Shown here: positions 16,381 through 64,000 of the stretch, piece by piece
Layout: each line of letters opens with the position of its first letter
Position numbering within the stretch: the first letter of the stretch is position 1
NCBI RefSeq assembly: GCF_002775205.1
Contig: NC_036456.1
Location: forward strand, 24,193,968 to 24,257,967
Source of the DNA: Xiphophorus maculatus
Taxonomy: Eukaryota; Chordata; Actinopteri; Cyprinodontiformes; Poeciliidae
Length of the DNA stretch: 64,000 bases
Direction: 5' to 3'
Notes under the pieces: generated by a model
Seen by the model: the letters and a program-made list of their open reading frames with translations, nothing else
The model's database searches: none
Told to the model about the DNA's origin: nothing
Translations under genes and position numbers: made by a program

Positions 16381-18245
<1,865 letters not shown>

Positions 18246-19966: not shown

Positions 19967-19971
19967 CCCAC

Positions 19972-20329
19972 TGTTAATTAGGTTAGGTTCTTAGGTTATT
20001 TGCAGCAAACAGGATGGTGTATCGGTCAGGATACAGGAAGGAGGACATGAGATCAAACTTGACTTGGATGCGAACTGGTTTATTCGTCGTGATGCTCAGT
20101 GTTGCCAGTAGTTTTCCGTCATCAACTTAACACTCGGAGCATCACTTCTCAAGACTACAACATGAATGCGGTCTCACATGCTGAAAACGCAGCAAACTGA
20201 CCCGGAAGTATATTAAATTGCTCCCATGAGCAGAGCACAGCACTAAACTCCGACTTACGTCACTTCCTAGGATACTCTCTAAACCAACATTACAAAATAA
20301 AATACAGAAATGTCAGCGCCTTTTATACA
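19972..20329 (-). repeat. BEL/Pao LTR 1 (3' LTR of the first unit)
   Basis: 358 bp. On the plus strand it begins TGTTAATTAGG and ends TTTTATACA, so as an element in minus orientation it runs TGTATAAAA ... TAATTAACA. It is preceded by the target duplication CCCAC. A purine-rich ttgggggtgg tract (the polypurine tract) adjoins its inner edge. Confidence 0.9.
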
Positions 20330-20376
20330 GCCACCCCCAAATGTGGTTACACATTTGCTAAACATAAAAGGCTTTA

Positions 20377-23300
20377 TCAAGTCTTGGGGGACTTCTGGCT
20401 GTCCTCCTCAGTGTCCTTTCCTTCAGCTGGCACAGCTGGTAAAACAACCAACCGAGCAACTGGTCTAGTGTAGACATGTTCACTAACTTTCACATCCGCT
20501 GATCTGATAAGTCCATCATCACTGCGGTGAATCTTGGTCACATGACCTATCGGCCATAAAGCGCGGGGCAGCTGGGGATCCACAATCATAACGATTGCTT
20601 TCTGCAGAAGGTCCGGAGGGTTTGAATGCCATTTGTGTCTTGTCTGTAAGCCAGGAAGATATTCTCTGATGAATCTTGCCCAGAAGTGATCAGCAAGAAT
20701 CTGTGAATGCTGCCAACGTCTTCGACTGAGGTTTTCTATCTCTGGGTAGACCACCTGGGGTAGGGATCCATCAGGCCGCCCCATGAGGAGACTATTTGGA
20801 GTCACAGGGTCCACATCTGCCACGTCAGTTGATACATATCCCAAAGGCTTTGAGTTCAGTATCGATTCCACCTCCAGAAGAACTGTAAGAAGTACCTCCT
20901 CCTGTAGAGGTTGGGAACCCACACAGCTTCGGAGAGCTGCCTTCACTGAACGAACCTCTCGCTCCCACACTCCGCCAAAATGTGGAGCTGCTGGGGGATT
21001 AAACTGAAATTTAATCTTCTGGGAGGCTAGCTGCCCCTGCAGCGTCTCTGACATGTTGGCAAAGGCTTCTCTGAGTTCCCGATCTCCTCCCTTAAAATTG
21101 GTCCCACAATCAGACCATAGCTCTGCAGGCTTTCCCCTTCGGGCAATAAATCGTCTCAGGGCCATAAGGAAAGCATCTGCATCCAGACTACTTAGGAGAT
21201 CCAAGTGTACTGCCCTCATTGTCAGACACTTGAAAATGATACCCCAGCGTTTCTCCTGCCGTCTTCCTATTTTCACAATCATGGGCCCAAAGCAGTCAAC
21301 ACCAGTGGAGTAAAAGGCGGGCTTGTACAACCTAAGCCGAGCGGCAGGAAGGTCAGCCATCCTCGGAATTGAGGGTTGCGCCCTCCAACGCTGGCACTCA
21401 GGACAGGTGCGCTGGTATTTGCGTATTGCTTCTCTTCCACGCAGTATCCAGTAAGATCTCCGTAACTCTGCAAAAACCCGTTCAGGGCCTGGATGATGGA
21501 GATCAATGTCGTATTTCTGGATGAGAAGACGTGTGAAGGGGTGAGTAGGATCCAGGACAATAGGATGCAGTGTCGATCCGTCAAGACCTCCTAGACGTCG
21601 TAATCGACCTCCTACTCTGATAAGGCCTGCTGAGGTATCCAGTTCAGGTGCCAACGTGAGTAAGCGACTTCTGGATGAAACAGATTTCGCTTCGGCAAGT
21701 AAACGACATTCCTCTGGAAATGACTCCTGTTGAGCTCGCCTAAGGAGAGCCTGTTCTGCAGCCTGATAATCCTCAGCACGAGGTGAAGTTGAGAGCGTTT
21801 GTCCTTGAAGTTCCTTAACAGAAGCATCCAAGAGCTCCTGCCATGTCTTGTACTCCATTTCATCCCAACAGATAGATGCGGAGGTGGTTACTGTTCCACA
21901 GAAGACAGCCTTTCGGAGCTCTGATTCCTCATTAAAGGGCTCAGAGTTAGGCTTCTCTGGCCATGTGTCGGGACTGTGGAGCAGAAAGGGGGGTCCATCT
22001 GACCACCTGTTTGGCACTTTGAGTTCTGCCAGAGCCTTTCCCCTTGTCAGGTCATCCGCTGGATTACTTTCGGAGTCTACATAGCGCCAGGTACAGTTTT
22101 CTGTCAACTCCTGTATCTCAGCTATCCTGGCTCCTACAAAGATTTTATAGCGACAGGACTGCGAGCTCAACCAGTTGAGGACAGTTGTCGAGTCTGACCA
22201 CAGAATTATCCTTCTGATAGTCGAGGTGAGTTCTTTTCTCAAGATACTGCCCAACTGTGCTGCCACCAAGGCTCCACAGAGCTCTAGGCGAGGGATAGAG
22301 AGGGTCCGTTTTGGAGCTACACGGGAACGAGCTAGGATGAAGGTGAGATGAACCTGACCGCCGCACTCTTCAGTCCTCATATAAGCTACAGCTCCATAGG
22401 CTTTCTCAGATGCATCTGCGAAGATGTGCACTTCACGGACGTCCTCTTCTAAGTTGGTTTGGGTAGGAGCATAAGCGCGTGGGAAGGTAAGCTGAGGTAG
22501 AAACTTAAGCTCTGCCTCCCAGTCATTCCAAGCTTGAAGGAGTGTGGATGGAAGGTTTGAGTCATCCCAACCATGCTTCTTATCCCACAACTGCCTAAGG
22601 AGGAGCTTGGCCCGAGTAGTGAAAGGTAACAGATAGCCTAAAGGGTCATACTGTGTCGCTAGAACTCTATAGATGTTTCGAAGAGTTGGCATGTCATAGG
22701 TCACAGGTCTGTGCTTATAGCCCAAAGAGTCTGTATTCCAGTCCCAACTGAGCCCAAGTGTCGTCTCTGAAGAGTTGGATTTGTCTTCTGCTAACCACAG
22801 ATCCAGGCTTTGAGATCTCGCTTCAGGGGGCAAATGACTCACAACACTGGGGTCGTTGCAAGCCCACTGACGTAACTCAAAACCGGCTGATTTTAGCAGT
22901 TCTCTCAGTCGGTCTACAAGGATTTTGGCTTCTTCAGGTGAACTAACACTTTGTAGACAGTTGTCTACGTAGAAACACTTCTCAATGGAGAATCTTAGGT
23001 AGTCATCGGGCTGGGTGTGTTCTGTCACATGACGCTGTAGAGCGAATGTTGCACAGCAGGGGCTTGAGGTTGTCCCAAAGGGCAGGACCTGCCACTCAAA
23101 GATTTTAGGAGGTTCATCCACCTTCAAATCCCGCCAAAGGAACTTCAACAGGGGGCGATCCTCCTGGAGAAGAAGTACTTGATGGAACATCCCCTTGATA
23201 TCGCCACTCACAGCTATGGGATATTCACGGAACCTAATTAGGACTCCCAGTAAAGGGGCTCCAAGTGTGGGACCAGGCAGCAGAAACTGATTCAGGGACT

Positions 23301-26238: not shown

Positions 26239-26270
26239 CCTGATAGCTTCTATCCGGCTCGAAGGACCAG

Positions 26271-26628
26271 TGTTAATTAGGTTAGGTTCTTAGGTTATTT
26301 GCAGCAAACAGGATGGTGTATCGGTCAGGATACAGGAAGGAGGACATGAGATCAAACTTGACTTGGATGCGAACTGGTTTATTCGTCGTGATGCTCAGTG
26401 TTGCCAGTAGTTTTCCGTCATCAACTTAACACTCGGAGCATCACTTCTCAAGACTACAACATGAATGCGGTCTCACATGCTGAAAACGCAGCAAACTGAC
26501 CCGGAAGTATATTAAATTGCTCCCATGAGCAGAGCACAGCACTAAACTCCGACTTACGTCACTTCCTAGGATACTCTCTAAACCAACATTACAAAATAAA
26601 ATACAGAAATGTCAGCGCCTTTTATACA
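26271..26628 (-). repeat. BEL/Pao LTR 2 (shared middle LTR)
   Basis: 358 bp with the same ends as LTR 1 and LTR 3. It serves as 5' LTR of the first unit and 3' LTR of the second. Inside it, read on the minus strand and one base past the LTR, tggtccttcgagccgga matches the complement of the 3' end of a eukaryotic tRNA-Tyr (from recall of that tRNA's acceptor sequence), the likely primer-binding site. Confidence 0.9.
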
Positions 26629-26675
26629 GCCACCCCCAAATGTGGTTACACATTTGCTAAACATAAAAGGCTTTA

Positions 26676-29600
26676 TCAAGTCTTGGGGGACTTCTGGCTG
26701 TCCTCCTCAGTGTCCTTTCCTTCAGCTGGCACAGCTGGTAAAACAACCAACCGAGCAACTGGTCTAGTGTAGACATGTTCACTAACTTTCACATCCGCTG
26801 ATCTGATAAGTCCATCATCACTGCGGTGAATCTTGGTCACATGACCTATCGGCCATAAAGCGCGGGGCAGCTGGGGATCCACAATCATAACGATTGCTTT
26901 CTGCAGAAGGTCCGGAGGGTTTGAATGCCATTTGTGTCTTGTCTGTAAGCCAGGAAGATATTCTCTGATGAATCTTGCCCAGAAGTGATCAGCAAGAATC
27001 TGTGAATGCTGCCAACGTCTTCGACTGAGGTTTTCTATCTCTGGGTAGACCACCTGGGGTAGGGATCCATCAGGCCGCCCCATGAGGAGACTATTTGGAG
27101 TCACAGGGTCCACATCTGCCACGTCAGTTGATACATATCCCAAAGGCTTTGAGTTCAGTATCGATTCCACCTCCAGAAGAACTGTAAGAAGTACCTCCTC
27201 CTGTAGAGGTTGGGAACCCACACAGCTTCGGAGAGCTGCCTTCACTGAACGAACCTCTCGCTCCCACACTCCGCCAAAATGTGGAGCTGCTGGGGGATTA
27301 AACTGAAATTTAATCTTCTGGGAGGCTAGCTGCCCCTGCAGCGTCTCTGACATGTTGGCAAAGGCTTCTCTGAGTTCCCGATCTCCTCCCTTAAAATTGG
27401 TCCCACAATCAGACCATAGCTCTGCAGGCTTTCCCCTTCGGGCAATAAATCGTCTCAGGGCCATAAGGAAAGCATCTGCATCCAGACTACTTAGGAGATC
27501 CAAGTGTACTGCCCTCATTGTCAGACACTTGAAAATGATACCCCAGCGTTTCTCCTGCCGTCTTCCTATTTTCACAATCATGGGCCCAAAGCAGTCAACA
27601 CCAGTGGAGTAAAAGGCGGGCTTGTACAACCTAAGCCGAGCGGCAGGAAGGTCAGCCATCCTCGGAATTGAGGGTTGCGCCCTCCAACGCTGGCACTCAG
27701 GACAGGTGCGCTGGTATTTGCGTATTGCTTCTCTTCCACGCAGTATCCAGTAAGATCTCCGTAACTCTGCAAAAACCCGTTCAGGGCCTGGATGATGGAG
27801 ATCAATGTCGTATTTCTGGATGAGAAGACGTGTGAAGGGGTGAGTAGGATCCAGGACAATAGGATGCAGTGTCGATCCGTCAAGACCTCCTAGACGTCGT
27901 AATCGACCTCCTACTCTGATAAGGCCTGCTGAGGTATCCAGTTCAGGTGCCAACGTGAGTAAGCGACTTCTGGATGAAACAGATTTCGCTTCGGCAAGTA
28001 AACGACATTCCTCTGGAAATGACTCCTGTTGAGCTCGCCTAAGGAGAGCCTGTTCTGCAGCCTGATAATCCTCAGCACGAGGTGAAGTTGAGAGCGTTTG
28101 TCCTTGAAGTTCCTTAACAGAAGCATCCAAGAGCTCCTGCCATGTCTTGTACTCCATTTCATCCCAACAGATAGATGCGGAGGTGGTTACTGTTCCACAG
28201 AAGACAGCCTTTCGGAGCTCTGATTCCTCATTAAAGGGCTCAGAGTTAGGCTTCTCTGGCCATGTGTCGGGACTGTGGAGCAGAAAGGGGGGTCCATCTG
28301 ACCACCTGTTTGGCACTTTGAGTTCTGCCAGAGCCTTTCCCCTTGTCAGGTCATCCGCTGGATTACTTTCGGAGTCTACATAGCGCCAGGTACAGTTTTC
28401 TGTCAACTCCTGTATCTCAGCTATCCTGGCTCCTACAAAGATTTTATAGCGACAGGACTGCGAGCTCAACCAGTTGAGGACAGTTGTCGAGTCTGACCAC
28501 AGAATTATCCTTCTGATAGTCGAGGTGAGTTCTTTTCTCAAGATACTGCCCAACTGTGCTGCCACCAAGGCTCCACAGAGCTCTAGGCGAGGGATAGAGA
28601 GGGTCCGTTTTGGAGCTACACGGGAACGAGCTAGGATGAAGGTGAGATGAACCTGACCGCCGCACTCTTCAGTCCTCATATAAGCTACAGCTCCATAGGC
28701 TTTCTCAGATGCATCTGCGAAGATGTGCACTTCACGGACGTCCTCTTCTAAGTTGGTTTGGGTAGGAGCATAAGCGCGTGGGAAGGTAAGCTGAGGTAGA
28801 AACTTAAGCTCTGCCTCCCAGTCATTCCAAGCTTGAAGGAGTGTGGATGGAAGGTTTGAGTCATCCCAACCATGCTTCTTATCCCACAACTGCCTAAGGA
28901 GGAGCTTGGCCCGAGTAGTGAAAGGTAACAGATAGCCTAAAGGGTCATACTGTGTCGCTAGAACTCTATAGATGTTTCGAAGAGTTGGCATGTCATAGGT
29001 CACAGGTCTGTGCTTATAGCCCAAAGAGTCTGTATTCCAGTCCCAACTGAGCCCAAGTGTCGTCTCTGAAGAGTTGGATTTGTCTTCTGCTAACCACAGA
29101 TCCAGGCTTTGAGATCTCGCTTCAGGGGGCAAATGACTCACAACACTGGGGTCGTTGCAAGCCCACTGACGTAACTCAAAACCGGCTGATTTTAGCAGTT
29201 CTCTCAGTCGGTCTACAAGGATTTTGGCTTCTTCAGGTGAACTAACACTTTGTAGACAGTTGTCTACGTAGAAACACTTCTCAATGGAGAATCTTAGGTA
29301 GTCATCGGGCTGGGTGTGTTCTGTCACATGACGCTGTAGAGCGAATGTTGCACAGCAGGGGCTTGAGGTTGTCCCAAAGGGCAGGACCTGCCACTCAAAG
29401 ATTTTAGGAGGTTCATCCACCTTCAAATCCCGCCAAAGGAACTTCAACAGGGGGCGATCCTCCTGGAGAAGAAGTACTTGATGGAACATCCCCTTGATAT
29501 CGCCACTCACAGCTATGGGATATTCACGGAACCTAATTAGGACTCCCAGTAAAGGGGCTCCAAGTGTGGGACCAGGCAGCAGAAACTGATTCAGGGACTG

Positions 29601-32537
29601 TCCAAGGTATTTATGAGAGCAATTGAAAGCCAGGCGATTCTTCCCATTATGACTGACGAGATGATGGGGAATGTACCAGCTCCCCTTTGATGAGGTGTTT
29701 TGTGTTACTTCTTTTACGGCCCCAGAATGAATCAGCTTCTGTATTTCTGCTCTGTAAGCATCAGCCTGGTGGGAATCCTTTAGTAGGCGTTTCTCTGTGC
29801 TTTGAAGCATGGCCATGACAGATTCCTTTGGTGCATTCAGTTGTGGCATCTGTGCATGACGGAGGAGAGGTGTGGCATACCTCAGCACGCCATCCACCAT
29901 TATGCGAATCGTTTTAGCTTCGAGTAGAGCCACAGCTTGAAGATCCTGCTTTGACCGGGTCACTTCCTTTTCAGATGTGTAAGGCACTGCATCCATCTGC
30001 CAGAGCCGCTCTACATGCTTAAATAACTCATCCGATTGGGAGGACGTGTATAAGCTTAGGGCAGGCTGGGTTGGCCGCCCCATCAAAAGACTTGGTCCCT
30101 GAAGGGTCCACCCCAGCCGAGTATGGACAGCTGCTGGACTGCCAGGTGGGCCAAGCCGAACCGGTTCTATGGGGGTTATCAGGTGCGGCTGGTCTGAACC
30201 AATAAGGAGCAGTGGTTCGACTCGCTTCAACGCCGGCACTGGGATCCCTTGCAGGTGTTTATACTTCCTCCGCAGCTGATCAACAGGATATGTATGATGA
30301 GCTAAGTTGAGGCTGTCAGCTGTAAACGCTCCCTCAATCTTGTGTTGCAACCCAGGATTGGTAGCTGCAGAGACACTGAAAGATACGTTACGTCCATGTA
30401 ACATCTGAATATCGTAATGGACGGTGCGTAAAGGGAGGTCCTCGGGGATGCCCACCAGACCAAGGATTTTTGCAGCAGCCGGGAGCAACATGGTTCGCTC
30501 GGAACCGTCATCCAGGATTGCAAAGGTATCTAGAGTGTGTTGCCCATAACTTAGAACCACAGGTACAATCTTGAGCAAAACACGATGGCCGACCCCATGT
30601 CGATCTAAGTAGAGGGAACCTGACGCTGAATTGGTAAGGCAACTTTCTTCCTTTGCAGAGACACCCGTGTCGTATCTTTCAGTTCTGACATTTACCTCAT
30701 GAAGAGCCAGCAGGTGTTTTCCTTGGCAAAGACTGCAGGGTTTCTTCAGTGTGCATTGAGCCGCTAGATGATTTCGGGCACAACGCCAGCATCGTTTGTT
30801 GACTTGAATCCAATTCTTTATTTCTTCTTTGGAGAGCTTAGCCACACCATCACATTGACTGAAATAATGTTCTGTGCTCTCGCAGTAAGCACAATAGGCT
30901 TTGCTCTTATACTTCCCTCCAACTCGACTCTCCTTTGGTAGCAGGGAAGTGTGTTCTGAGGGTCCTTTCACATTATGTAGGACTGTTACAGTCTGTTTGA
31001 AGGGATGGGCATCCGCCTTTCTGCAGGTCCGTTCTCTGCTACCCTTCCCACCAGCTTGGCTATCGAACCCTTGACACCATGACTCCTGGCGTAGCCATTC
31101 AGATAAGTCATGAAGGGTGTAGGTGGTGCCAGGCTGTTTGAACTGATGTCGACGAAAGTCAGCTCTTTGCTCTGGAGGGAGCTTGCTTATCAGACGGGCA
31201 ACATGAGAGCCACAATTCAGTTCCACTTCTCCCTCAAGTCCTAGTGTTTGCAACAGACCAACTAGTGACTGCACCTGGAGAGAGAACCTTTGGAAAGCTA
31301 CTATATCACCTCTCCTTATTTCTGGGCCATCTAGGACACTTGCAATTTTCCTTAAAGCAAGCTGATGAGGTTGTCCAAATTTATCATGGAGGGCAGCCAT
31401 GGTATCAGTATAAGGCTTTGGTGAATTCAGGTAAGCATCAGCTATTAGTCGAGCTTCATCAAACTTAAGATGGTCCACAAGTATTTGATACTTAAAGAGC
31501 TCGGTTGCATTACGAGGGAGTAGGTTCTCCAGGGCCATTCGGAGCCTGGCAAACTCAGTAGGATCTGAATGAATTAACTTCGGGATTGTTGGTTTGGGCC
31601 CCCTATATACCGCCTCAGATGAAAGAGGTGGGGCTGAATTATGCCAATTCGACATCTCACACGCTGCCCCCGTGACTGAAGTATGGGGTTCAACCTGAAC
31701 AGGGTTTGGTTGCAGCAGGCCTGCATTTATTGATGCCCACTTTGAGGATGGCTCAACATGTTGCGAAGAAGCGTGGAACACGTTTCCTCTGTGCTCCTGA
31801 GGGATGCGTGTTGGCAGAAAGGATTTACGGGGCAAAGATGCTGTATTAGGCGGGGGGTAGTACTGTAAGCCATAATCTGAATACTGTTCTTCAACCTTTA
31901 GTTTGGAGAATCCTGTGTGCAGCTCCTCTCCCGGTTCAGGCCACGGAGGTGGATCAGGCCACTCCTCCTCATCTTCATCTTTAATCGGCCTTGTGTTAGT
32001 GGTGTACACCCTTTCTGAGCTGCTCATAGGGGGCTGATAAATGGGATATTTTGAGGCAGTCAGCTGAGCCATATCCTTTCTCAGTGAGTGAGCAACTTCA
32101 ATCAGTGCTTTGATATCACTCCTTGCTTCATTAAGTTCTCTCAGGCCCTCCTGTAGAACTTCCTGTGATTGAAGTAGCTTCTCTCTTTCCACCTGCAAAG
32201 CTCTGAATCCTGTTTGAGAGGGTTGGATGGGCGTCTCTAGCAGGTTGTAGGGGAAAACTTCAGGCGTGAGATCCCTAAAGTTCCTCCCTTGTTCACTTCT
32301 CTCCAGCTGAGGAGAAGTAGGAGAGCAGGTTACATCACTATCACCGTAGCGAGGTGGTGCAGTGCTATACTGAGGTTGGTGTTCCACATGTCTTGGGATA
32401 GGTGGTGGGATTTCCCAATGTGGCATTTCTCTAATGGAATGATGTGTGTACTCAAATTCAAAGTCATCAAATCGGCTTGGTCGGCGTGACTGCCGTTTAG
32501 GTCTCACATCAGGGAATGACGCTCTGTCTGGCTCCAT
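26676..32537 (-). CDS. BEL/Pao gag-pol polyprotein, second unit
   Basis: A second 1953-codon gag-pol frame, exactly 6299 bp downstream of the first, with an identical predicted protein and identical overlapping shadow frames at the same offset throughout. Parts are as in the first unit: gag-like region, zinc knuckles, protease, reverse transcriptase with RNase H, integrase. It looks whole. The lack of any length difference over 5.9 kb means the two units are either very recent copies of one another or an assembly duplicate. Confidence 0.9.
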   Translation of the reverse strand: MEPDRASFPDVRPKRQSRRPSRFDDFEFEYTHHSIREMPHWEIPPPIPRHVEHQPQYSTAPPRYGDSDVTCSPTSPQLERSEQGRNFRDLTPEVFPYNLLETPIQPSQTGFRALQVEREKLLQSQEVLQEGLRELNEARSDIKALIEVAHSLRKDMAQLTASKYPIYQPPMSSSERVYTTNTRPIKDEDEEEWPDPPPWPEPGEELHTGFSKLKVEEQYSDYGLQYYPPPNTASLPRKSFLPTRIPQEHRGNVFHASSQHVEPSSKWASINAGLLQPNPVQVEPHTSVTGAACEMSNWHNSAPPLSSEAVYRGPKPTIPKLIHSDPTEFARLRMALENLLPRNATELFKYQILVDHLKFDEARLIADAYLNSPKPYTDTMAALHDKFGQPHQLALRKIASVLDGPEIRRGDIVAFQRFSLQVQSLVGLLQTLGLEGEVELNCGSHVARLISKLPPEQRADFRRHQFKQPGTTYTLHDLSEWLRQESWCQGFDSQAGGKGSRERTCRKADAHPFKQTVTVLHNVKGPSEHTSLLPKESRVGGKYKSKAYCAYCESTEHYFSQCDGVAKLSKEEIKNWIQVNKRCWRCARNHLAAQCTLKKPCSLCQGKHLLALHEVNVRTERYDTGVSAKEESCLTNSASGSLYLDRHGVGHRVLLKIVPVVLSYGQHTLDTFAILDDGSERTMLLPAAAKILGLVGIPEDLPLRTVHYDIQMLHGRNVSFSVSAATNPGLQHKIEGAFTADSLNLAHHTYPVDQLRRKYKHLQGIPVPALKRVEPLLLIGSDQPHLITPIEPVRLGPPGSPAAVHTRLGWTLQGPSLLMGRPTQPALSLYTSSQSDELFKHVERLWQMDAVPYTSEKEVTRSKQDLQAVALLEAKTIRIMVDGVLRYATPLLRHAQMPQLNAPKESVMAMLQSTEKRLLKDSHQADAYRAEIQKLIHSGAVKEVTQNTSSKGSWYIPHHLVSHNGKNRLAFNCSHKYLGQSLNQFLLPGPTLGAPLLGVLIRFREYPIAVSGDIKGMFHQVLLLQEDRPLLKFLWRDLKVDEPPKIFEWQVLPFGTTSSPCCATFALQRHVTEHTQPDDYLRFSIEKCFYVDNCLQSVSSPEEAKILVDRLRELLKSAGFELRQWACNDPSVVSHLPPEARSQSLDLWLAEDKSNSSETTLGLSWDWNTDSLGYKHRPVTYDMPTLRNIYRVLATQYDPLGYLLPFTTRAKLLLRQLWDKKHGWDDSNLPSTLLQAWNDWEAELKFLPQLTFPRAYAPTQTNLEEDVREVHIFADASEKAYGAVAYMRTEECGGQVHLTFILARSRVAPKRTLSIPRLELCGALVAAQLGSILRKELTSTIRRIILWSDSTTVLNWLSSQSCRYKIFVGARIAEIQELTENCTWRYVDSESNPADDLTRGKALAELKVPNRWSDGPPFLLHSPDTWPEKPNSEPFNEESELRKAVFCGTVTTSASICWDEMEYKTWQELLDASVKELQGQTLSTSPRAEDYQAAEQALLRRAQQESFPEECRLLAEAKSVSSRSRLLTLAPELDTSAGLIRVGGRLRRLGGLDGSTLHPIVLDPTHPFTRLLIQKYDIDLHHPGPERVFAELRRSYWILRGREAIRKYQRTCPECQRWRAQPSIPRMADLPAARLRLYKPAFYSTGVDCFGPMIVKIGRRQEKRWGIIFKCLTMRAVHLDLLSSLDADAFLMALRRFIARRGKPAELWSDCGTNFKGGDRELREAFANMSETLQGQLASQKIKFQFNPPAAPHFGGVWEREVRSVKAALRSCVGSQPLQEEVLLTVLLEVESILNSKPLGYVSTDVADVDPVTPNSLLMGRPDGSLPQVVYPEIENLSRRRWQHSQILADHFWARFIREYLPGLQTRHKWHSNPPDLLQKAIVMIVDPQLPRALWPIGHVTKIHRSDDGLIRSADVKVSEHVYTRPVARLVVLPAVPAEGKDTEEDSQKSPKT

Positions 32538-32569
32538 CCTGATAGCTTCTATCCGGCTCGAAGGACCAG

Positions 32570-32927
32570 TGTTAATTAGGTTAGGTTCTTAGGTTATTTG
32601 CAGCAAACAGGATGGTGTATCGGTCAGGATACAGGAAGGAGGACATGAGATCAAACTTGACTTGGATGCGAACTGGTTTATTCGTCGTGATGCTCAGTGT
32701 TGCCAGTAGTTTTCCGTCATCAACTTAACACTCGGAGCATCACTTCTCAAGACTACAACATGAATGCGGTCTCACATGCTGAAAACGCAGCAAACTGACC
32801 CGGAAGTATATTAAATTGCTCCCATGAGCAGAGCACAGCACTAAACTCCGACTTACGTCACTTCCTAGGATACTCTCTAAACCAACATTACAAAATAAAA
32901 TACAGAAATGTCAGCGCCTTTTATACA
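32570..32927 (-). repeat. BEL/Pao LTR 3 (5' LTR of the second unit)
   Basis: 358 bp, followed by the second copy of the CCCAC target duplication at 32928-32932. After it the sequence resumes as in the empty site downstream of F (cagtccaagctctgcatgat). Confidence 0.9.
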
Positions 32928-32932
32928 CCCAC

Positions 32933-34148
32933 AGTCCAAGCTCTGCATGATTTGGTGACCGGATGTTAATGAGGCAATGAAGCTTCAAACTGCTTCGCCA
33001 CTAGAGACCAAGAACCCTGAGCATCAGCAACACTTCCGGTGTTATTGTCTCTCATCTCTCCCAGATGGACCGTCTGGCTGCAGAGAAACAAGCTCAGGGC
33101 TCCTATTAGTCGTTATTGTGAGTTAAAATTTTCACGAAAGTAAAATGTTTGTTTTTGTGGTATATTTTGAAGGGATATGTAAACGTTACCATAGCGACCA
33201 GAGACAGAAACCGTTAGGGCAGCGGCCAAGACGAGGAGAGAAGTAGAGCTTTAGGTCTGGTTCAAACGGCACGATTTTAGGATTGTCGGCCGATTTTCCA
33301 AACCTCTGTGACCACAGAACCGATAAAAGTCCAACAGGTTCGGTCGGTTAATGTGTCCAGCCACACGGCAGGAGCAACACACCACACGAACCGGTTCCAG
33401 AAGAAAATCCAGTAAAACCCCCAACATACCAAACATGAATTTAGAATAATCAAACATGGATGACGATGTAGAAGCAGCAGTGATACTTTGTGGCTCATTT
33501 TAAGAGATAAAATGTAACAAATAGAAAAGGCGTTTGATAAAAGATGGCGGGAGCAGCCGTTCTATTTGCTGCACTATGATTTGGAGGTGAGTTATGTTTT
33601 TTCGTAGTTAACAATTTAACTGAATAAACATAACCACATATAATAAACATGTATAAAATGAGAATTTTTGCTTATATCTGTTTAACAACCCTGGTTGTAA
33701 CAACTTGGGTTGTTATTCTGCTGTGAACCGAATTGATTTGTTTGTTATTGAGTTTTACTCAATTAAATTTCTTACGTATACATTGCAAATTGTATTTTTA
33801 TTATAGTTGATTGTTGTTTTTCATCTCTCCTTATTTCTTTTGTTCTTCCTATAACTGATGGAGATATATAGATATTATTTATAATGTATAAAAGTATTGT
33901 TTATGTCATGTAATTAGCCATACATTCTTAAGAAAATGAAATAATAAATACTTTATGGTATTCTTATTTAGTAATGTAATTAGATTAGTTGTATTCTCAC
34001 CCCACGCCACTAGAGGCAGTAGCAGGCCCGAGAAGATGCGACTATGGAGCAAATTTAGAAGTACACCGAAAGCAATTTCTTCGGTTTTTAGTATCATGTA
34101 TAAACTGATTCAGACAGTATCACATAATTTATCATTAAACATCATTAC
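32933..34148. other. Region between the BEL element and U1 copy 1, paralogous to 62190-63406
   Basis: Matches the F flank almost base for base. 33253-33530 holds a DNA-transposon-like piece (cacgattttaggattgtcggccg, then a short plus-strand frame MDDDVEAAVILCGSF at about 33455), possibly Harbinger-type. The rest is AT-rich and is the 3' flank of the minus-strand U1 gene. Short frames here are identical in both copies but not recognisable. Confidence 0.5.
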
Positions 34149-34273
34149 CAGGGGAGAGCGCGAACGCAGTCCCCCACTACCATAAATTGTGCAGTTGAGA
34201 TTCTCCCATGTGGAGAATTCACAGAGGTCAGATGGCCGCAGTGCAATGGCTGATCCTCACCCTGAGCGATCCA
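34149..34273 (-). pseudogene. U1 snRNA copy 1, 3' part only (nt 39-163)
   Basis: Identical, except for one base (ggccgc for cgccgc), to the corresponding part of the intact U1 at 63407-63569. It contains the U1A loop ATTGCAC, stem-loop III, the Sm-like site AATTTATGG and the terminal stem-loop with GCGTTCGCGC. Nucleotides 1-38 and the promoter are gone: at nt 39 the sequence passes directly into the 3' end of a Tx1-like LINE lying in the same orientation. It cannot be transcribed from its own promoter. Confidence 0.85.
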
Positions 34274-34501
34274 ATTTTTTCAATTTCAATTTTCAAAGAT
34301 TTTTTATTGGTCCTTTACATAAATCGCCTTGTCCAATAGGACAATAGTCCAAAGTTTACATTGTCACACCATACCATTGTTAACTCAAAATGGAACACAC
34401 CAAGACAATACATACATAAGGATTTATAAAACAGAATAAATTAAACCGATTAAAGGAAACAAAGGAGGAAAACAAGAAACGGAGGTTCGAGTTTGTGTTA
34501 T

Positions 34502-37500
34502 TCAAGGTTGTTTCACTATTTTTAATAATTCAGTAGGCACTTCCCACTCGGAGATCTCCTCATCATTCTTTTTTCCTTGACTCCATTTAAAAATATAATC
34601 TTTGACTGATGCACCCACCATCTTTATAACATTTGTTTCAATTATTTCATATTTTCTGTATAACCAAATATTTCTTGTTTTCCAAATTGCCTCCTTGACA
34701 CAATTAATTACAATCCACCACCTGATTTCATTTCTTTCCCAGTCCTCCTTAAATAACCCGTACGCTATATTTTCATAAGTTAAAATCACATTATGCAACT
34801 TGCTCAACCATGGCAACATTAACGTCCAAACTCTTTTTGCAAAAGGACATGTCCAAAACAGATGTTTGATCGTCTCCTCGTCCCCACATCTAGCTCTAGG
34901 ACATCTCGGCATTTTGGTGCAATTTCTCTTGTATAAAAAGTCTCTTGTAGGTAAACATTTGTTAACAATTTGCCAAGCCAAGTCTTTGTGGATATTCAAT
35001 AAGTTTTTATTATTCACATTTTTCCATGTTTTTATAACTTCCTCCTCGTTCAGTTTTTCAATTGGTGTCAATTTATTGTAAGATACCAATTTATTCTCTA
35101 TTTCTTTCCTCTTAATTCTTTCCGGTGGGATTTCTTGTAGGCCACATCTCAGTGCTTGTATTACCGTCTGAAATATAGCAGGGTATCTATCTGCAAAGGG
35201 TTTATTCAAATTTATTCTTTTGTTCCAATTTTTCAAAACTTTCCTCCCCAACCAGAATCTTGCGAATGGAGTCCATGACGGTTCTGGAGATATATTCAAG
35301 CACACGCTCAAGATAGGAGTGATGAACAATGCTTTAAATTTTATTCCTATATCTGGTACCTCTCTCCCCCCTTTTTCTAATTGTCTATACATAATTTCTC
35401 TTTTCAGTCTCTCCTGTCTGCTTCCCCAAAGGAAACTAAACATCATTTTTCTAATTGCCGTCATTGTTCTATGGGGCATCGGGAAAGTTGATGCAAGAAA
35501 GGCCAGAGTAGATATAATTTCTGCTTTTATTACTAATACTTTACCTATAAAAGATAATTCTCTGTCTCTCCATTGCATCAACTTCCCCTGGATTCTTTGT
35601 AATTTAAGTTTCCAATTCTCTGTTTTCATGTCTTTCCCTATTAGTATTCCTAACACCTTTATTGTATCCTTTTTTTCTATTAAACCCCAATTTTCTCTTA
35701 TTTCCCTCCAATTTATATATAAAATCTCACTCTTTTGCTTGCTAACTTTCATTCCTGAAGCTTTTGTGAATTTCTCGCTTATCTTTAAGCTCTCACTTAT
35801 AGAAGCATTATCTGTTAACAGAAGCGTCAGGTCGTCCATGTATATCGTTAGTTTTATGTCTTTTCCGTCGTTACCAGGTGGTGTTATTCCCTTGATCATT
35901 TTGTTTTTCCTAATAGCGCCTGCTAATGGTTCTATTGCTATTATAAATAACAGCGGGGACAGTGGGCAGCCCTGTCTCACTCCTGCTTTAATAGCCAAAG
36001 GGGGAGTTAAGGTCCCATTCACTACCACTACGCTACTACACTCATTATACAAGGTTTTTATCCATCTTTTAAATATTTCTCCAAAATTAAGATGATCTAA
36101 AATTCTTTCTAAAAATTCATGATTTACACTGTCAAAGGCTTTTTCTAAGTCAATCCCTAAAATAGCTGTTGAAAGTTGCCTTTCCTGACTATATAGGTAA
36201 CCATCTCTAATCAAGGCCAAACTGTCCGTCATTTTCCGTCCTTTCACTCCACAAGTTTGCTCCTTCCCTATTATAGTGGTAATCACAGTCTGTAGCCGAA
36301 AGAATAAAACTTTCGCTATTATTTTTACATCTACACCTAGCAATGTCAATGGTCTCCAATTTTTCAGATCCGTTTTTTCCCCTTTTTTATATAACAATGA
36401 AATCATACCTTGATTCATTGAGTTGGGCAATTTTTCTTCACTTAGTGCTTCTCTGTAGACTTGTAGCAAGGGGGCTTTTAAGGATTCCCAAAATGTTGTA
36501 TAAAATTCCTTTGGCAGCCCGTCTAGTCCTGGGGTTTTATTATTTTTCATACTTATCAAGGCTTCCGTAATTTCATTAATTGTTATTTCTTGGTCTAGTC
36601 TACTTTTTTCCGTATGAGTTAATTTGTTAGTCAGCTTCATTAACAATTCAACCATCTCGTCTTCTTGGGCCGCCTGGTGCCTATATAGGTTCTTATAATA
36701 ATCGTAAATTTCAGTTAAAATCTGCTGCTCTTCACATTTCTCTTCACCTTTTTCATTAATTAACTTATTTATTGTCGTTTTTGATCGAAATAGTTTTCTA
36801 AAAAAATATCTTGTACATTTTTCATTCTCCTCAAAATGTTGTATTCTACTTTGTATCACCGCTCCTCTGCTTCTTTCATTCATTACTGTCATTAACTCTT
36901 TTTTTAGTCTCATTATTTCCTCATTTACTTGAAAACCCGCATGAAGTAGCTTATAGTATCTTTGAAGTTTGGCTTCTTTTCTTTTTTGCCATTTTCTCTT
37001 TTCTCTTGCTAGTCTTCTTCCTTCTCGACAAAAAAATATTTTTGTTCTATTTTTAATCTCTTCCCACCACTCACCTACTGAGTCATATAAAGGACACAAA
37101 GAAGTCCACTGATTAAATTTAACTTTATATTTTTCAACTACTTTTTTATTGTTTAGTATACTTATGTTTAATTTCCATATTCCAAAATTAGATTTTTGGG
37201 TACTGGGAATTTCTATGACGCATGTAAGTTGGTGGTGGTCCGAGAAAGGGACTGGCTCAACTTTACATGACACAGGTGTAACTGTGCTAGATGTTAAAAT
37301 ATAATCAATCCTTGAAAAAATTTTCCCGTTGGACCAGGTAAAACCTGCGTCCTCTGAATGTAAAGATCTATAGACGTCCGTAAGTTTACAATCCTTTATA
37401 AGGTTGTTTAACGCCTGTGAACTTAGGTCTACTCTATTTGTCAAACAGGCACTTGTATTTCCAATTCTTTTCTCCAAATTACAATTAAAGTCCCCACCCT

Positions 37501-37915
37501 GTCTCCCATTACATATATAATATTGCAAAGTTTGCAATAGGAGTACTCTTTCTTGCATATCCGTTGAACCATATACATTAATTATTCTCAATTTACATCC
37601 ATTTTTTTCTATGTCTATTAACAATACTCTTCCGTCCATAATGATTTCAACTTTTTCTATATTAATAGTTCTATTATTCAACAATACTACTACTCCAGTT
37701 GCTCTGTTTAAATTATCCCCTGACCAAAAGGACAATCCATATTGCCACCGCTTTTGAAATTTCATATAATTATCCCTAAAGGGTAAGGAACATTCTTGTA
37801 ATAAAAAAAGATCACCACCATTATTATGTAAGAAATCAAATACTGTCTGACACTTCACTGGGTCATTTAAGCCCCTCGTATTTATTGTAGTTATGTATAA
37901 CGAAACTATATTTAC
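34502..37915 (-). CDS. Tx1-like LINE ORF2: endonuclease-reverse transcriptase
   Basis: Open from GTA at 37915, directly after an in-frame TAA, to the stop at 34502, about 1137 codons. The N-terminal part is an APE-type endonuclease: TINTRGLNDPVKCQTVFDFL, LLQECSL, GGDFNCN, and SDHHQLT near the end of the domain. The reverse transcriptase follows: LLYKKGEKTDLKNWRPLTLLGVDVKI, GIDLEKAFDSVNHEFL, AGVRQGCPLSPLLF, and the active-site box YMDDLTL. A C-terminal Cys/His motif (CPRARCGDEETIKHLFWTC) closes it. No ATG precedes the endonuclease motifs. The ORF1 stop is about 80 bp upstream, so reinitiation or a non-ATG start would be needed if this copy is active. Confidence 0.85.
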   Translation of the reverse strand, partial: VNIVSLYITTINTRGLNDPVKCQTVFDFLHNNGGDLFLLQECSLPFRDNYMKFQKRWQYGLSFWSGDNLNRATGVVVLLNNRTINIEKVEIIMDGRVLLIDIEKNGCKLRIINVYGSTDMQERVLLLQTLQYYICNGRQGGDFNCNLEKRIGNTSACLTNRVDLSSQALNNLIKDCKLTDVYRSLHSEDAGFTWSNGKIFSRIDYILTSSTVTPVSCKVEPVPFSDHHQLTCVIEIPSTQKSNFGIWKLNISILNNKKVVEKYKVKFNQWTSLCPLYDSVGEWWEEIKNRTKIFFCREGRRLAREKRKWQKRKEAKLQRYYKLLHAGFQVNEEIMRLKKELMTVMNERSRGAVIQSRIQHFEENEKCTRYFFRKLFRSKTTINKLINEKGEEKCEEQQILTEIYDYYKNLYRHQAAQEDEMVELLMKLTNKLTHTEKSRLDQEITINEITEALISMKNNKTPGLDGLPKEFYTTFWESLKAPLLQVYREALSEEKLPNSMNQGMISLLYKKGEKTDLKNWRPLTLLGVDVKIIAKVLFFRLQTVITTIIGKEQTCGVKGRKMTDSLALIRDGYLYSQERQLSTAILGIDLEKAFDSVNHEFLERILDHLNFGEIFKRWIKTLYNECSSVVVVNGTLTPPLAIKAGVRQGCPLSPLLFIIAIEPLAGAIRKNKMIKGITPPGNDGKDIKLTIYMDDLTLLLTDNASISESLKISEKFTKASGMKVSKQKSEILYINWREIRENWGLIEKKDTIKVLGILIGKDMKTENWKLKLQRIQGKLMQWRDRELSFIGKVLVIKAEIISTLAFLASTFPMPHRTMTAIRKMMFSFLWGSRQERLKREIMYRQLEKGGREVPDIGIKFKALFITPILSVCLNISPEPSWTPFARFWLGRKVLKNWNKRINLNKPFADRYPAIFQTVIQALRCGLQEIPPERIKRKEIENKLVSYNKLTPIEKLNEEEVIKTWKNVNNKNLLNIHKDLAWQIVNKCLPTRDFLYKRNCTKMPRCPRARCGDEETIKHLFWTCPFAKRVWTLMLPWLSKLHNVILTYENIAYGLFKEDWERNEIRWWIVINCVKEAIWKTRNIWLYRKYEIIETNVIKMVGASVKDYIFKWSQGKKNDEEISEWEVPTELLKIVKQP

Positions 37916-37995
37916 TTAAAGAAAAAAGGAATCTTATTCTCATATAGGATAAAATAGCCCAAAATAGAAAATTCCAAACAAAACACCAATCTCCA

Positions 37996-39111
37996 TTAGT
38001 CTTTACCTTTTTTCTTCTTTTTCTTTTGTGTTCGCCAAGTCTCCTTCGGTTCTTCCTCTCGTTCCACACTAGATATTTGGGTAATGTCCGAAAAAGTTAC
38101 TAATCCTTTCTCATCTAAGAATGGAGTAGGGTTCTGTAGAATCGCTGGCCAATGTTCAAGTTCTGGTCCTCCTGACGAGTCAGTTGAGGGTCCTTGAGGT
38201 CTTTTCCGTGAACTCGCTTGGTCCCCAATTCCTGGCTCGAAAAGTAGGTGCAGGTCTTCCAATGTTCCTTCATCCTCCGGGAAAAGGGAGGCACTGCCTT
38301 CCTCTGGAGTCTTGTCCTGTAGTTGTTCTTGTTGAGGAAGAAATAAATTACTCGTTGCTTGTTCCAACAATTCTCCGCATTCTCCAATTGTTATGACTCG
38401 AATTGGTTTCTTCATCCCCTCTCCCTCCAGCGATGGCGTCTCTATTAACGATCCTGGTTGTTGAAGTGTTTCCGTTGTAATTGGGAGCAGCTGCTCCCTT
38501 TCAGGTTCTTGTGTCACTCGAGGAGGGATCATGGGTGTGGTTCCTCCATTCTCTTTTCTTTGTTCCTCTGCGCTTTCCAGCTGTTTTTCTTCATCTGGTT
38601 CCGTATTTGTCTCCATTTGTAGTAACTGGTCTCCCAAGTCTGCTCTCCCTCTCGTTTCTTGTGAAGCAAAAGTCTTGACTCTGTTAGCATATGACTTGGG
38701 GCAACTTTTGAAGGTATGCCCCCTCTCTCCACAAAGATTACAATTTACCGGTTCCTGGCAGTCTTTAGTTAAATGTCCCTCAGTTCCACAGTTTTTGCAA
38801 TATGTAATCCGGCATTCCGCCGAAAGGTGTTGCTGGGAACCGCATCTACGGCAGGTCTTAGGCTGGCCCGGGTAGAAAACATGGCCTCTTATGGCTCCCA
38901 ACTGGATCACAGGCGGTAGATGATAGGTCTCACCTGTTGCCAAATTTCTCTTCAATTGTACGAAGAAGCGTCTGCCGCCAGTCCTGACCCCGTCCTCGTC
39001 CTTTAACTCGTATCCGTGTTTCACTGTACACCTTTGCTGTAGCCAAGTTCTAATGTCCTCCATTCGAACTTGTTCAGAGAACATAAGTACTGTGATTGAC
39101 TTAGGCTCCAT
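37996..39111 (-). CDS. Tx1-like LINE ORF1 (CCHC RNA-binding protein)
   Basis: 371 codons from ATG at 39111. After an RNA-recognition-like segment (ITVLMFSEQVRMEDIRTWLQQRC ... GGRRFFVQLKRN) come three closely spaced CCHC knuckles: CRRCGSQQHLSAEC, CKNCGTEGHLTKDC and CNLCGERGHTFKSC (about residues 85-145). A long Glu/Pro-rich tail ends in a Lys run. Triple knuckles of this form are typical of ORF1 in the Tx1 group, where ORF1 coats the RNA. An in-frame TAA lies just before the ATG. Compared with my recollection of the family the N-terminus may be short. Confidence 0.8.
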   Translation of the reverse strand: MEPKSITVLMFSEQVRMEDIRTWLQQRCTVKHGYELKDEDGVRTGGRRFFVQLKRNLATGETYHLPPVIQLGAIRGHVFYPGQPKTCRRCGSQQHLSAECRITYCKNCGTEGHLTKDCQEPVNCNLCGERGHTFKSCPKSYANRVKTFASQETRGRADLGDQLLQMETNTEPDEEKQLESAEEQRKENGGTTPMIPPRVTQEPEREQLLPITTETLQQPGSLIETPSLEGEGMKKPIRVITIGECGELLEQATSNLFLPQQEQLQDKTPEEGSASLFPEDEGTLEDLHLLFEPGIGDQASSRKRPQGPSTDSSGGPELEHWPAILQNPTPFLDEKGLVTFSDITQISSVEREEEPKETWRTQKKKKKKGKD

Positions 39112-39130
39112 TTACGATAAATGGATAAAT

Positions 39131-39474
39131 TTTCGTCCCTCAAATTAACCTAAGCAACCTAAGTATATTCAGAGCTGATTACATCTACAACAACTAATAA
39201 TTTATATTAATATATCTAAAATGTAAAGGAAACCAAAACAAATGTTTATTTTGTATCAATAACGGCGTTAATGGCCGCTCTGCTGCTTCCACCTGCTGGT
39301 CAGAGCGAGGAATGACATTTAACGGAATAAACAAACTGAATGACAAAAGATACATTTTGTTTGATCTCAGTGGGCACCAGAGTGATTGACAGAAAATACT
39401 TAGAAGATACGTTTTGGTAATTACGAAATTAACAGATGATAGTAAAATAAATATTTATCATTTAACATTATTAC
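39131..39474. other. U1-upstream segment resumed after the LINE
   Basis: 39131-39335 matches 63817-64000 at the window end, which in the F copy lies about 250 bp upstream of the intact U1. It is followed by about 140 bp that runs into the 3' flank of U1 copy 2. This shows that U1 genes sit in tandem in this unit. No gene is seen. Confidence 0.6.
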
Positions 39475-39871
39475 CAGGGGAGAGCGCGAACGCAGTCCCC
39501 CACTACCATAAATTGTGCAGTTGAGATTCTCCCATGTGGAGAATTCACAGAGGTCAGATCGCCGCAGTGCAATGGCTGATCCTCACCCTGAGCGATCCAC
39601 CTACAGCACAGGTGTCAAACTCCAGTCCTGGAGGGCCACTGCCCTGCAACTTTTAGATGTGCCTCTGCTGCACCACACCTGAATAGAATAATTAGGTCAT
39701 TACCAGGACTCTGGAGAACTGATCTACACATGAAGGAGGTAATTAAACCATTTCATGCCAGTGTTTTGTACCTGTGGCACATCTAAAAACTGCAGGACAG
39801 CGGCCCTTGAGGACTGGAGTTTGACACCCCTGACCTACAGGATCATGGAGTCGCTCCTGCCAGGTAAGTAT
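39475..39871 (-). pseudogene. U1 snRNA copy 2, split by a hAT element
   Basis: The two halves (39475-39606 and 39841-39871) together give a 163-nt U1 sequence, starting ATACTTACCTGG at 39871 and ending ...TCTCCCCTG at 39475. A 226-bp hAT element and one copy of its 8-bp target duplication lie between them, within stem-loop I. The 5' splice-site-pairing segment, U1A loop, Sm-like site and terminal stem-loop match the intact copy. With the insertion it cannot make a normal U1. Confidence 0.85.
39607..39832. mobile_element. Non-autonomous hAT element (226 bp) inside U1 copy 2
   Basis: The inverted ends cacaggtgtcaaactccagt and (inverted) caggggtgtcaaactccagt are flanked by a perfect 8-bp duplication, ACCTACAG (39599-39606 and 39833-39840). 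The empty site with one ACCTACAG is seen in the U1 gene at 63531-63538. Terminal sequence and 8-bp duplication fit a hAT MITE common in fishes. Confidence 0.9.
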
Positions 39872-41474: not shown

Positions 41475-43084
41475 CTACTCACATGTGTGAATTCTGATGT
41501 GAGAAGTTAAAAGGTATTTTTTAGTGAAACTTTTCCCACAGATCCCACAGGAGAAAGACTTCTCTCTTGTGTGACTCTTCATGTGATGAAGTAAAAATGA
41601 CTTAAAAGGAAAACATTTTCCACAGGTCCCACATGAGAAAGAATTCTCACCTGTGTGAGTCTTCATGTGAAAATGTAAAAGGTGTTTTACAGCAAAACAT
41701 TTTCCACAGGTTCCACAAGAGAACGGCTTCTCATCTGTATGAATTATCATGTGAGCAGTTAAGCTTTTTTTATGAGTAAAACCTTTTCCACAGATCTCAC
41801 ATGAGAAAGGCTTCTCTCCAGTGTGAATTCTCATGTGAATATTTAAACTTTTTTTATAAGTGAAACTTTTTCCACAAGTTCCACATGAGAAAGGCTTCTC
41901 ACCTGTGTGACTTCTCATGTGATCAACTAACTGAGATTTAAACAAGCAATTTTTTCCACAGATACCACAAGAGATCGTCTTCTCACCTGTGTGAAATCTC
42001 ATGTGAGCAGTTAAACTTTTTTTATGAGTGAAACCTTTTCCACAGGTCCCACATGAGAAAGCCTTCTCACCTGCGTGAGTTCTCATGTGATCAACTAAGT
42101 GAGATTTATTCAAGCAATTTCTTCCACAGGTGCTACAAGTGATCCCCTTCTCACCAGTGTGAACTCTCATGTGAACAGTTAAACTTTTTTTATGAGCGAA
42201 ACATTTTCCACAGGTCCCACATGAGAACGGCTTCTCACCTGTGTGAACTCTCATGTGACTAACCAAGTGAGGTTTCCTCCGGAAACTTTTTCCACAGTTC
42301 CCACATGAGAAAGGCTTCTCACCTGTATGAATCGTCATGTGATCAAGTAACTGAGATTTAGACGCAAAACTTTTTCCACAGGTTGTGCACGTGTAAGGCT
42401 TCTCACCTGAGTGAATTCTTATGTGTCTGTTTAAAATGCCAATCTGATGGAAACTTTTTCCACATGCTGCACATGTGAACGGTTTTTCACCTGTATGAAT
42501 TCTCATGTGATTAGTTAAACGACTCTTGTGAGTGTAACCTTTTCCACAGGTTGAACATGTGAAAGATTTCTTGGCCGTGTGAGTTCTCACGTGTATCATG
42601 AAGGAATTATTTCGAGAAAAGGTTTTATCACAAATTTTACAAGAATATAGATTTTGGTTTGGTTGAGTTTTCTTGTGTTTTTCTTTTTCTGAAGTCTCAG
42701 TTGTGCCTTTCTGCTGTTTGTTCACCAACATGTCATCAGTCTCCTGTTTCAGCACAAGATGCTCTTCATCCTGACTGATGCAGAGTTGCTTCTCTTCGTC
42801 TTTGAACTGTTGATGTTCTGGTTCCTCTTGTTCCTCTTTTATCTGCAGAGGTTCTGGTTCCTCTTGTTCCCGTTTTATCTGCAGAGGTTCTGGTTCCTCT
42901 TGTTCCTCTTTTATCTGCAGAGGTTCTGGTTCCTCTTGTTCCCGTTTTATCTGCAGAAGTTCTGGTTCCTCATGTTCCCGTTTTATCTGCAGAGGTTCTG
43001 GTTCCTCTTGATCCAAAGTGGAGTTTTCCTCTGGGTTGCTGAGCTCATTGAGAACCTCCTCCTCTTTCCAGCATTGTGGGAGAT
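41475..43084 (-). CDS. Gene D exon 2: C2H2 zinc-finger protein with 14 fingers
   Basis: The acceptor is read as ...TGTCCAG at 43085-43087. The joined codon gives [26 protein letters not shown]. Then come six 12-residue acidic repeats (EEPEPLQIKREQ type, about 42818-43020), the family motif [25 protein letters not shown], a basic spacer, and 14 complete C2H2 fingers. Linkers are less uniform than in B, C and E (HTAKKS, HTDEKP, HTREKS). It is the most diverged member, and finger helices differ from the others throughout. The frame ends HTCE at an insertion, so two further fingers are lost. The nuclear DNA-binding role is inferred from the fingers. Confidence 0.85.
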
Positions 43085-57603: not shown

Positions 57604-57696
57604 GAAGCTTTTCTCATGTGGGACCTGTGGAAAAAGTTTCAGGATGAAAAGACAATTACTTAAACACATGAAGATTCATGTGGGTGGGAAACGGTG
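57604..57696 (+). pseudogene. Out-of-frame terminal finger of gene E
   Basis: Continues as [30 protein letters not shown] in a different frame from the gene E protein. The same finger is in frame at 1-73 in gene A. The 2-bp loss just upstream in E removed it from the protein. Confidence 0.7.
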
Positions 57697-63406: not shown

Positions 63407-63569
63407 CAGGGGAGAGCGCGAACGCAGTCCCCCACTACCATAAATTGTGCAGTTGAGATTCTCCCATGTGGAGAATTCACAGAAGTCAGATCGCCGCAGT
63501 GCAATGGCTGATCCTCACCCTGAGCGATCCACCTACAGGATCATGGAGTCGCTTCTGCCAGGTAAGTAT
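63407..63569 (-). ncRNA. U1 spliceosomal snRNA (variant), intact
   Basis: A 163-nt sequence starting ATACTTACCTGGCAG at 63569 (the 5' splice-site-pairing segment) and ending ...GCGCTCTCCCCTG at 63407. Numbering follows human U1 without gaps through stem-loop I. Stem-loop I pairs as GAGCGA/TCGCTC, different bases from the human stem but still complementary. The U1A loop ATTGCAC is kept. Stem-loop III pairs through ATTCTCC/GGGAGAAT. The Sm-like site is AATTTATGG and the last stem-loop has GCGTTCGCGC. The U1-70K loop differs at nt 32, 33 and 35. U1 recognises 5' splice sites in the nucleus. With promoter elements present this copy could be expressed, probably as a variant U1. Confidence 0.88.
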
Positions 63570-63615
63570 GCTGTTCATTCCTCCGACTGACGATTAACAA
63601 CTTCACACATCCGGT

Positions 63616-63633
63616 TCTGACTCACGGTGGGAA
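63616..63633 (-). promoter_or_regulatory. Proximal sequence element-like block of U1
   Basis: About 48-64 bp upstream of the U1 start and conserved with copy 2 (39918-39935). It reads caccgtgagtcagaac on the minus strand. Position matches the vertebrate snRNA proximal element bound by SNAPc; the sequence match is from recall. Confidence 0.5.
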
Positions 63634-63755
63634 AGAAAATATTCCCTGATTCACTTTAGGATTTAACATTTAACAAAACACATTCAGTAACTCATAGAAA
63701 TAATAACAAATATGTAATAGAAATCAAAATAAACCAGAATATGGGCGGTTTAAAG

Positions 63756-63773
63756 CTCCCAAAATGCATTGCG
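63756..63773 (-). promoter_or_regulatory. Distal sequence element with ZNF143 (Staf/SPH) motif
   Basis: ctcccaaaatgcattgcg closely fits the ZNF143/SPH motif (TCCCAGAATGCATTGCG type). It lies about 190-205 bp upstream of the U1 start, where vertebrate snRNA distal enhancers lie. Copy 2 lacks it, and in copy 1 the region was lost with the LINE insertion. Confidence 0.6.
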
Positions 63774-64000
63774 AGAGAGTGCTGAAGCGTTTTAATTTTA
63801 GCATTTAAAATGTATTTCGTCCCTCAAATTAACCTAAGCAACCTAAGTATATTCAGAGCTGATTACATCTACAACAACTAATAATTTATATTAATATATC
63901 TAAAATGTAAAGGAAACCAAAACAAATGTTTATTTTGTATCAATAACGGCGTTAATGGCCGCTCTGCTGCTGCCACCTGCTGGTCAGAGCGAGGAATGAC
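63774..64000. other. Upstream flank of the intact U1, to window end
   Basis: 63817-64000 matches 39131-39335, the sequence resumed beyond the Tx1-like LINE. No gene is seen. In the other unit a further U1 gene follows about 140 bp beyond this segment, so a U1 gene may lie just outside the window. Confidence 0.5.

Follow-up and report, generated by a model that had tools for sequence, protein, structure and literature searches.

Does a long interspersed nuclear element (LINE) that ends flush inside a U1 small nuclear RNA (snRNA) gene record a single accident, or does it belong to a lineage that seeks out U1 genes? The question is raised by a stretch of 64,000 nucleotides (nt) from Xiphophorus maculatus (NCBI RefSeq assembly GCF_002775205.1, contig NC_036456.1; G000:C14:24193968-24257967), hereafter the window. 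An initial annotation of this DNA had noticed a LINE whose 3' end passes without filler, and in the same orientation, into T39 of U1, and the same junction is seen in the window by BLAST. We searched the window's own assembly (704 Mb) for further copies, and what was found makes it very probable that the window copy belongs to a lineage of Tx1-type LINEs with a single insertion site within U1 snRNA genes.

The evidence that carries this conclusion lies in the 3' junctions. A query that combined the 297 nt at the 3' end of the LINE with U1 nt 39-163 returned 32 rows, 26 with U1 only and six with LINE sequence, five of which belong to the lineage of the window copy (families A and B) and one to another family of this genome, here called Keno-type. 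All five recovered A/B 3' ends, spread over two chromosomes, meet U1 at T39 in the same orientation, so that the tabulation of 3' flanks proposed in the initial annotation yields U1 from nt 39 in every case. No A/B copy with an unrelated 3' flank was seen, within the reach of a U1-containing query that could miss B-like ends lacking U1. Because the two family B rows are one duplicated unit, the five 3' ends appear to represent about four independent insertion events. Families A and B occupy different U1 gene types, u1a (GACTCCATGATCCTGTAGGT and small variants of it) and u1b (AGATACCATGATCATGAAGGT and a single variant), and the junctions, aligned side by side, reveal that the tail of TTGAAA-like units varies in length among insertions. 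In copy 3 (C18:2179576-2184581) an A-like 3' piece adjoins a B-like piece in inverted orientation, perhaps the outcome of two events.

The association with U1 is also found when U1 is left out of the query. A census with a 2-kb core of the LINE gave 11 rows of 11 candidates, ten of which lie inside U1 gene clusters; four of these lead to the 3' ends already known, and a fifth corresponds to the inverted piece in copy 3. All ten tblastn rows of ORF2, the second open reading frame (ORF) of the element, with at least 60% identity lie no more than 2.1 kb from a U1 gene (interrupted U1 genes included), and a worn LINE piece, about 80% identical, adjoins a U1 gene on C7. The assembly has at least 28 Rfam matches to U1 above the cut-off, which amount to about 6.5e-6 of the genome (28 matches x 164 nt), and four independent hits on such a target would have a probability of about 2e-21 as a rough product. 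The suggestion that the window copy is one insertion of a U1-targeting lineage, first made from this single locus, is thus upheld by the junctions at nt 39 and by the clustering of the core matches.

The window offers a filled and an empty site for comparison. It carries three U1 genes on its minus strand (Rfam): one intact, one split by a hAT-like insert and one joined to the LINE. With the intact gene as BLAST query, U1 nt 39-163 is found at 34273-34149 with 98.4% identity; the Rfam match spans 34149-34292 (minus strand), its first ~20 nt being LINE sequence forced onto the model. The empty paralogue is the unit at 62.2-64 kb, whose 3' flank is 97.7% identical to 32928-34273. Since the flanks of this unit match both sides of the filled site, the segment 63532-63814 has no counterpart there, and 283 bp of target were lost, U1 nt 1-38 included.

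The window LINE and copy 2, which is on C18, share 97.8% identity in an alignment of 4845 columns. The protein features initially attributed to it hold: ORF1 matches RBD_ZCCHC3_2nd and zf-CCHC, with three CCHC knuckles counted by eye, and ORF2 has an apurinic/apyrimidinic (APE) endonuclease of the EEP type, a reverse transcriptase and a zf-RVT domain, with the motifs GDFN, SDHH and YMDD. The best solved relatives of ORF2 are LINE-1 ORF2p chains, aligned across amino acids (aa) 7-863 (human L1 ORF2p). NCBIfam gave only a match to a group II intron reverse transcriptase, far under its cut-off, and a comparison of ORF2 with viral contigs produced five stretches fitting a pattern and none that was confirmed. 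The copy in the window is not full length: about 285 nt of 5' sequence are present in copy 2 and absent here, as is a first ZCCHC3-type RNA-binding domain of ORF1. Native ORF1 therefore does not start at the ATG at 39111, a position where copy 2 has ACG. The ORF1 stop overlaps an ATG in the ORF2 frame (TAATG; window 37916-37998, minus strand), after which three stops precede the open part of ORF2, with no ATG ahead of the endonuclease motifs.

Table. Copies of the U1-associated LINE with recovered 3' ends, and features of the window (positions without a chromosome are window positions).
Feature	Position	Strand	Basis or remark
Copy A	window (C14)		3' end at U1 T39
A copy 2	C18, 5.16 Mb		3' end at U1 T39
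Copy 3	C18, 2.18 Mb		3' piece (91% like A) next to an inverted one (90% like B)
Two family B rows	C18, 5.437 and 5.443 Mb		single 6.3-kb tandem unit
U1 snRNA gene nt 39-163, 3' target remnant	34149..34273	-	Rfam and BLAST
5'-truncated LINE, family A	34274..39121	-	homology to full-length copy 2
3' tail, TTGAAA-like units, final T then U1 TGG	34274..34297	-	junction alignment
AATAAA near LINE 3' end	34303..34308	-	by eye; also in copies 2, 3, B and the Keno-type family
ORF2, 1137 aa, EEP/APE endonuclease, reverse transcriptase, zf-RVT	34502..37915	-	open frame, domain matches
ORF1, N-terminally truncated, second ZCCHC3-type RNA-binding domain and CCHC knuckles	37996..39111	-	domain matches
9 nt at 5' junction, unmatched to flank or copy 2	39122..39130	-	comparison with flank and copy 2
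Upstream host flank	39131..39316	-	matches empty unit 63815-64000, 1 mismatch
U1 gene interrupted by 226-bp hAT-like insert	39475-39871	-	Rfam
Intact U1 gene of empty paralogous unit	63407..63569	-	Rfam, 137.1 bits
Empty-unit segment (upstream region and U1 nt 1-38) without filled-site counterpart	63532..63814	-	paralogue comparison

Copy 2 informs on the 5' end of the element. It has U1 on both sides, and its order is U1 promoter, U1 nt 1-28, 10 nt and the ATG of ORF1, which thus starts 38 nt downstream of U1 nt 1; its ORF1 stops early relative to that of the window, and its ORF2 carries one stop. Among the 24 U1 5' ends that were read, 18 follow a u1a-type promoter (copy 2 included) and six a u1b promoter. 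The motif AGATACC at nt 19-25 occurs in copy 2 and in all six u1b genes, and in none of the 17 other genes with a u1a promoter. The 150 nt that precede U1 in copy 2 are identical (150/150) to those of the u1a gene C18:5423823, present in two overlapping loci, and 96.7-97.3% identical to those of several other u1a genes of C18. The conjunction of a u1a promoter with the u1b-type AGATACC means that U1 nt 19-28 of copy 2 probably arrived with the LINE RNA. This mismatch between head and promoter would be explained if LINEs were transcribed from U1 promoters, here that of a u1b gene carrying the LINE, and it would be explained as well by a template switch onto U1 snRNA.

The Keno-type family, which was named from its U2 junction and is likened to, or set apart from, the published Keno by description only, provides a comparison within the same genome. 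Its ORF2 is about 35% identical to that of A/B and its 3' end is CGAAAG followed by poly(A). At C8:23.05 Mb an element is joined to U2 (identified by Rfam) at TCTGTTC, which we take to be nt 39 of U2, and two older relatives are joined to U2 fragments (C18:3.696 Mb and C6:30.077 Mb); Rfam gave no match on five Keno-type loci. Among the 41 matches listed for the 3' end (40 of 132 candidates scored, with a query that could not reveal other RNA genes), four run into U2 and 37 end at the tail. Since these elements are mostly unjoined to their snRNA gene, the joining to U1 is not a general trait of such LINEs here. Among the 41 matches listed for the 5' end (40 of 70 candidates scored), 32 start within ~5 nt of U2 nt 1, and the U2 head has differing flanks in seven of the eight loci read, which indicates a fixed transcript start. 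Keno-type copies at unrelated places start with U2 nt 1 to ~26, as would be expected if a U2 promoter had driven their transcription. Among the matches listed, 5' and 3' rows are often ~3.05 kb apart; many copies thus seem to lack internal sequence, and several, those on C13 among them, have the look of duplicates. One Keno-type copy lies in a U1 gene (C18:5103066-5106902), where U1 nt 1-53 are followed by a single additional base, the U2 head, the element and then U1 from nt 37, with a 17-bp target duplication read from the ends flanking C18:5104736-5106459 (1.7 kb).

A tree of the reverse transcriptase region (14 rows, 533 columns, all from this genome, rooted on four L1-like rows) groups A, B and copy 3 in one clade (100/100) and the Keno-type rows in a separate one (100/100). 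The L1-like rows form a third clade (97/97) with long branches that carry the root. Given these long branches, it is likely, not proven, that A/B and Keno-type are sister groups, a relation that the shared form of their 3' ends helps to support.

Could an ordinary LINE have entered one U1 gene by chance and then been multiplied by duplication of the U1 clusters? Such clusters are duplicated in this genome, as in the tandem unit holding the two B rows, and the full copies are all in clusters of this kind, but the insertions differ in U1 type, tail length and 5' end: a full-length copy 2 contrasts with a truncated window copy that lost target DNA, and B is 71% identical in DNA. With junctions so distinct, we reject this explanation and give it almost no credence. 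That a Keno-type element of relaxed specificity should enter U1 by virtue of the likeness of U1 and U2 near nt 39 (GATC..TGTAG in u1a and U2) has slightly more to recommend it, since one Keno-type copy does occupy U1 (at nt 37) and is preceded by U1 nt 1-53, and since most Keno-type 3' ends are dispersed (37 of the 41 listed are not in U2). We nevertheless find it highly unlikely, because A/B form a clade of their own with 35% identity to the Keno-type family in ORF2, because none of the five recovered 3' ends is outside U1, and because family B sits in u1b genes, which lack TGTAG. For the latter reason we also reject the TGTAG common to U1 and U2 as the sole basis of recognition.

A third alternative concerns the 5' head only, which could have been acquired if the reverse transcriptase had switched from the LINE RNA onto U1 snRNA, the U1 promoter being unused. 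Heads of snRNA made by template switching have been described for other elements, such as the U6-L1 chimeras and SINEU, and a single copy cannot separate switching from promoter use. We regard this as doubtful, albeit a serious contender, given that only 10 nt separate the U1 head from the start of ORF1 in copy 2 and that Keno-type elements so often start near U2 nt 1 (32 of the 41 listed, several of which look like duplicates) amid differing flanks in seven of eight loci. Insertion by a U1-targeting lineage, which we favour, has several observations to contend with. Copies are few, about four events once the duplicated B unit is counted once, and come from a single genome; the junction query included U1 and could let B-like 3' ends without U1 escape. 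Five of the ten clustered core rows are fragments without a visible 3' end, which were excluded from the junction count, and one of the 11 core matches, of 53 bp and 83% identity, is outside U1 clusters, on C24. The U1 3' flank of copy 2 extends for only ~15-17 nt, departs from U1 at nt 41 by a mismatch, and is followed by a 5'-truncated Keno-type piece that ends in non-U1 sequence. Neither A copy, in the window or on C18, is intact. Finally, the search for 5' ends returned two rows, copy 2 and the truncated window copy; copy 2 is therefore the single witness to the U1 head, which a template switch would explain as well.

The insertion site, its orientation, the loss of target at the window copy and the variable tails are direct observations, and known LINE biochemistry suggests how they may have arisen. 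The APE endonuclease of ORF2 would nick the antisense strand of U1 opposite nt 38/39. The element RNA would end in a variable run of UUGAAA-like units plus UUG, its terminal UG could pair with CA at the end of the target primer, and target-primed reverse transcription would proceed towards the 5' end of the element. This end would be joined to upstream U1 sequence through U1 homology, as in copy 2, or, when truncated, by end joining to a break farther away, at the cost of target DNA, as in the 283 bp of the window copy. The full-length element, nearly devoid of a leader of its own, would be transcribed from the U1 promoter as a U1 head followed by the LINE, which is the least certain step of the mechanism. 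We offer, as a tentative scenario that falls somewhat short of even likelihood, that a Keno-like ancestor moved from U2 to U1 and that its promoterless descendant uses the U1 promoter. The U1 head of its RNA, ~28 nt long, would pair with the 5' end of the U1 gene about to be invaded, and each full-length insertion would restore the whole series of promoter, U1 head and LINE. In the Keno-type sister, the U2 head would then reflect the same cycle, and the Keno-type copy in U1 might be a snapshot of the onset of such a switch.

Other elements share these loci. Two different hAT-like short elements lie inside U1 genes, in the window (39607-39832) and on C8 (locus L021, ~1270-1493), both with the identical 8-bp duplication CTGTAGGT (U1 nt 32-39), adjoining the LINE site. 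The window also has a 6.3-kb tandem duplication (19968-26633 and 26267-32932, 99.97% identical) and arrays of an 84-bp repeat resembling C2H2 zinc-finger genes (10859-12508, 16878-18187, 41478-42598 and 56327-57641).

These results would add U1 to the natural targets of LINEs that encode an endonuclease, at a site in a highly conserved gene. The presence in one genome of a U1 lineage beside a U2-linked relative with relaxed targeting makes target choice and target switching directly comparable, and both families point to snRNA promoters as their LINE promoters. Site-specific LINEs are sought as tools for gene insertion.

How does this lineage compare with known systems? Tx1, Mutsu, Dewa and Tx1-Mar are target-specific members of the Tx1 clade whose targets are other than U1. 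The initial annotation knew of no described U1-specific member, and a literature search, in which the larger result lists were covered in part, found no U1-specific LINE either. The ORF2 of A/B has an APE endonuclease and a reverse transcriptase of the L1/Tx1 kind, and the elements have a specific repeated target (nt 39 of U1 at all five recovered 3' ends), as expected of the Tx1 clade, which includes target-specific families (PMC4640811). L1 resembles A/B in its alignable ORF2p (human protein, alignment over aa 7-863), whereas A/B have a CCHC ORF1, a specific target and a TTGAAA tail instead of poly(A), are confined to U1 rather than dispersed, and lie opposite the L1-like rows in the tree. 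Dada-U1 also targets U1 genes in fish (PMC3706591 and PMC8869645), but it is described as a DNA transposon that moves by cut-and-paste, produces 6-7-bp duplications and uses a different U1 site, GCGAAT/GCGAAC (PMC3706591); A/B encode LINE proteins and not a DDE transposase, and the flank comparison revealed no short Dada-like duplication at the window copy or copy 2. Utopia inserts in U2 snRNA genes, and the 5' part of its target may be missing, with an intact gene upstream (PMC4640811). It thus resembles A/B in a 3' flank that begins at snRNA nt 39 and in the possible loss of the 5' target, and differs from them in its restriction-like endonuclease, in place of which A/B have an EEP/APE domain, in its lineage and in its U2 target. 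Keno is a member of the Tx1 clade with an APE endonuclease, inserted in U2 snRNA genes, and its reported U2 site, like that of Utopia, is nt 39 (PMC4640811, section 6). As described there, Keno shares with A/B the type of endonuclease, a spliceosomal snRNA gene as target, the sense orientation and a 3' flank that starts at nt 39 of the RNA. The nearest relative that was found outside A/B, with 35% identity in ORF2, is this genome's Keno-type family, which has the same passage from AATAAA to TTGAAA/TTCGAAA at its 3' end. A/B nonetheless differ from Keno as described: their recovered 3' ends are all in U1 and not in U2, their tails consist of TTGAAA units without poly(A), and they form a clade separate from the U2-joined family of this genome.

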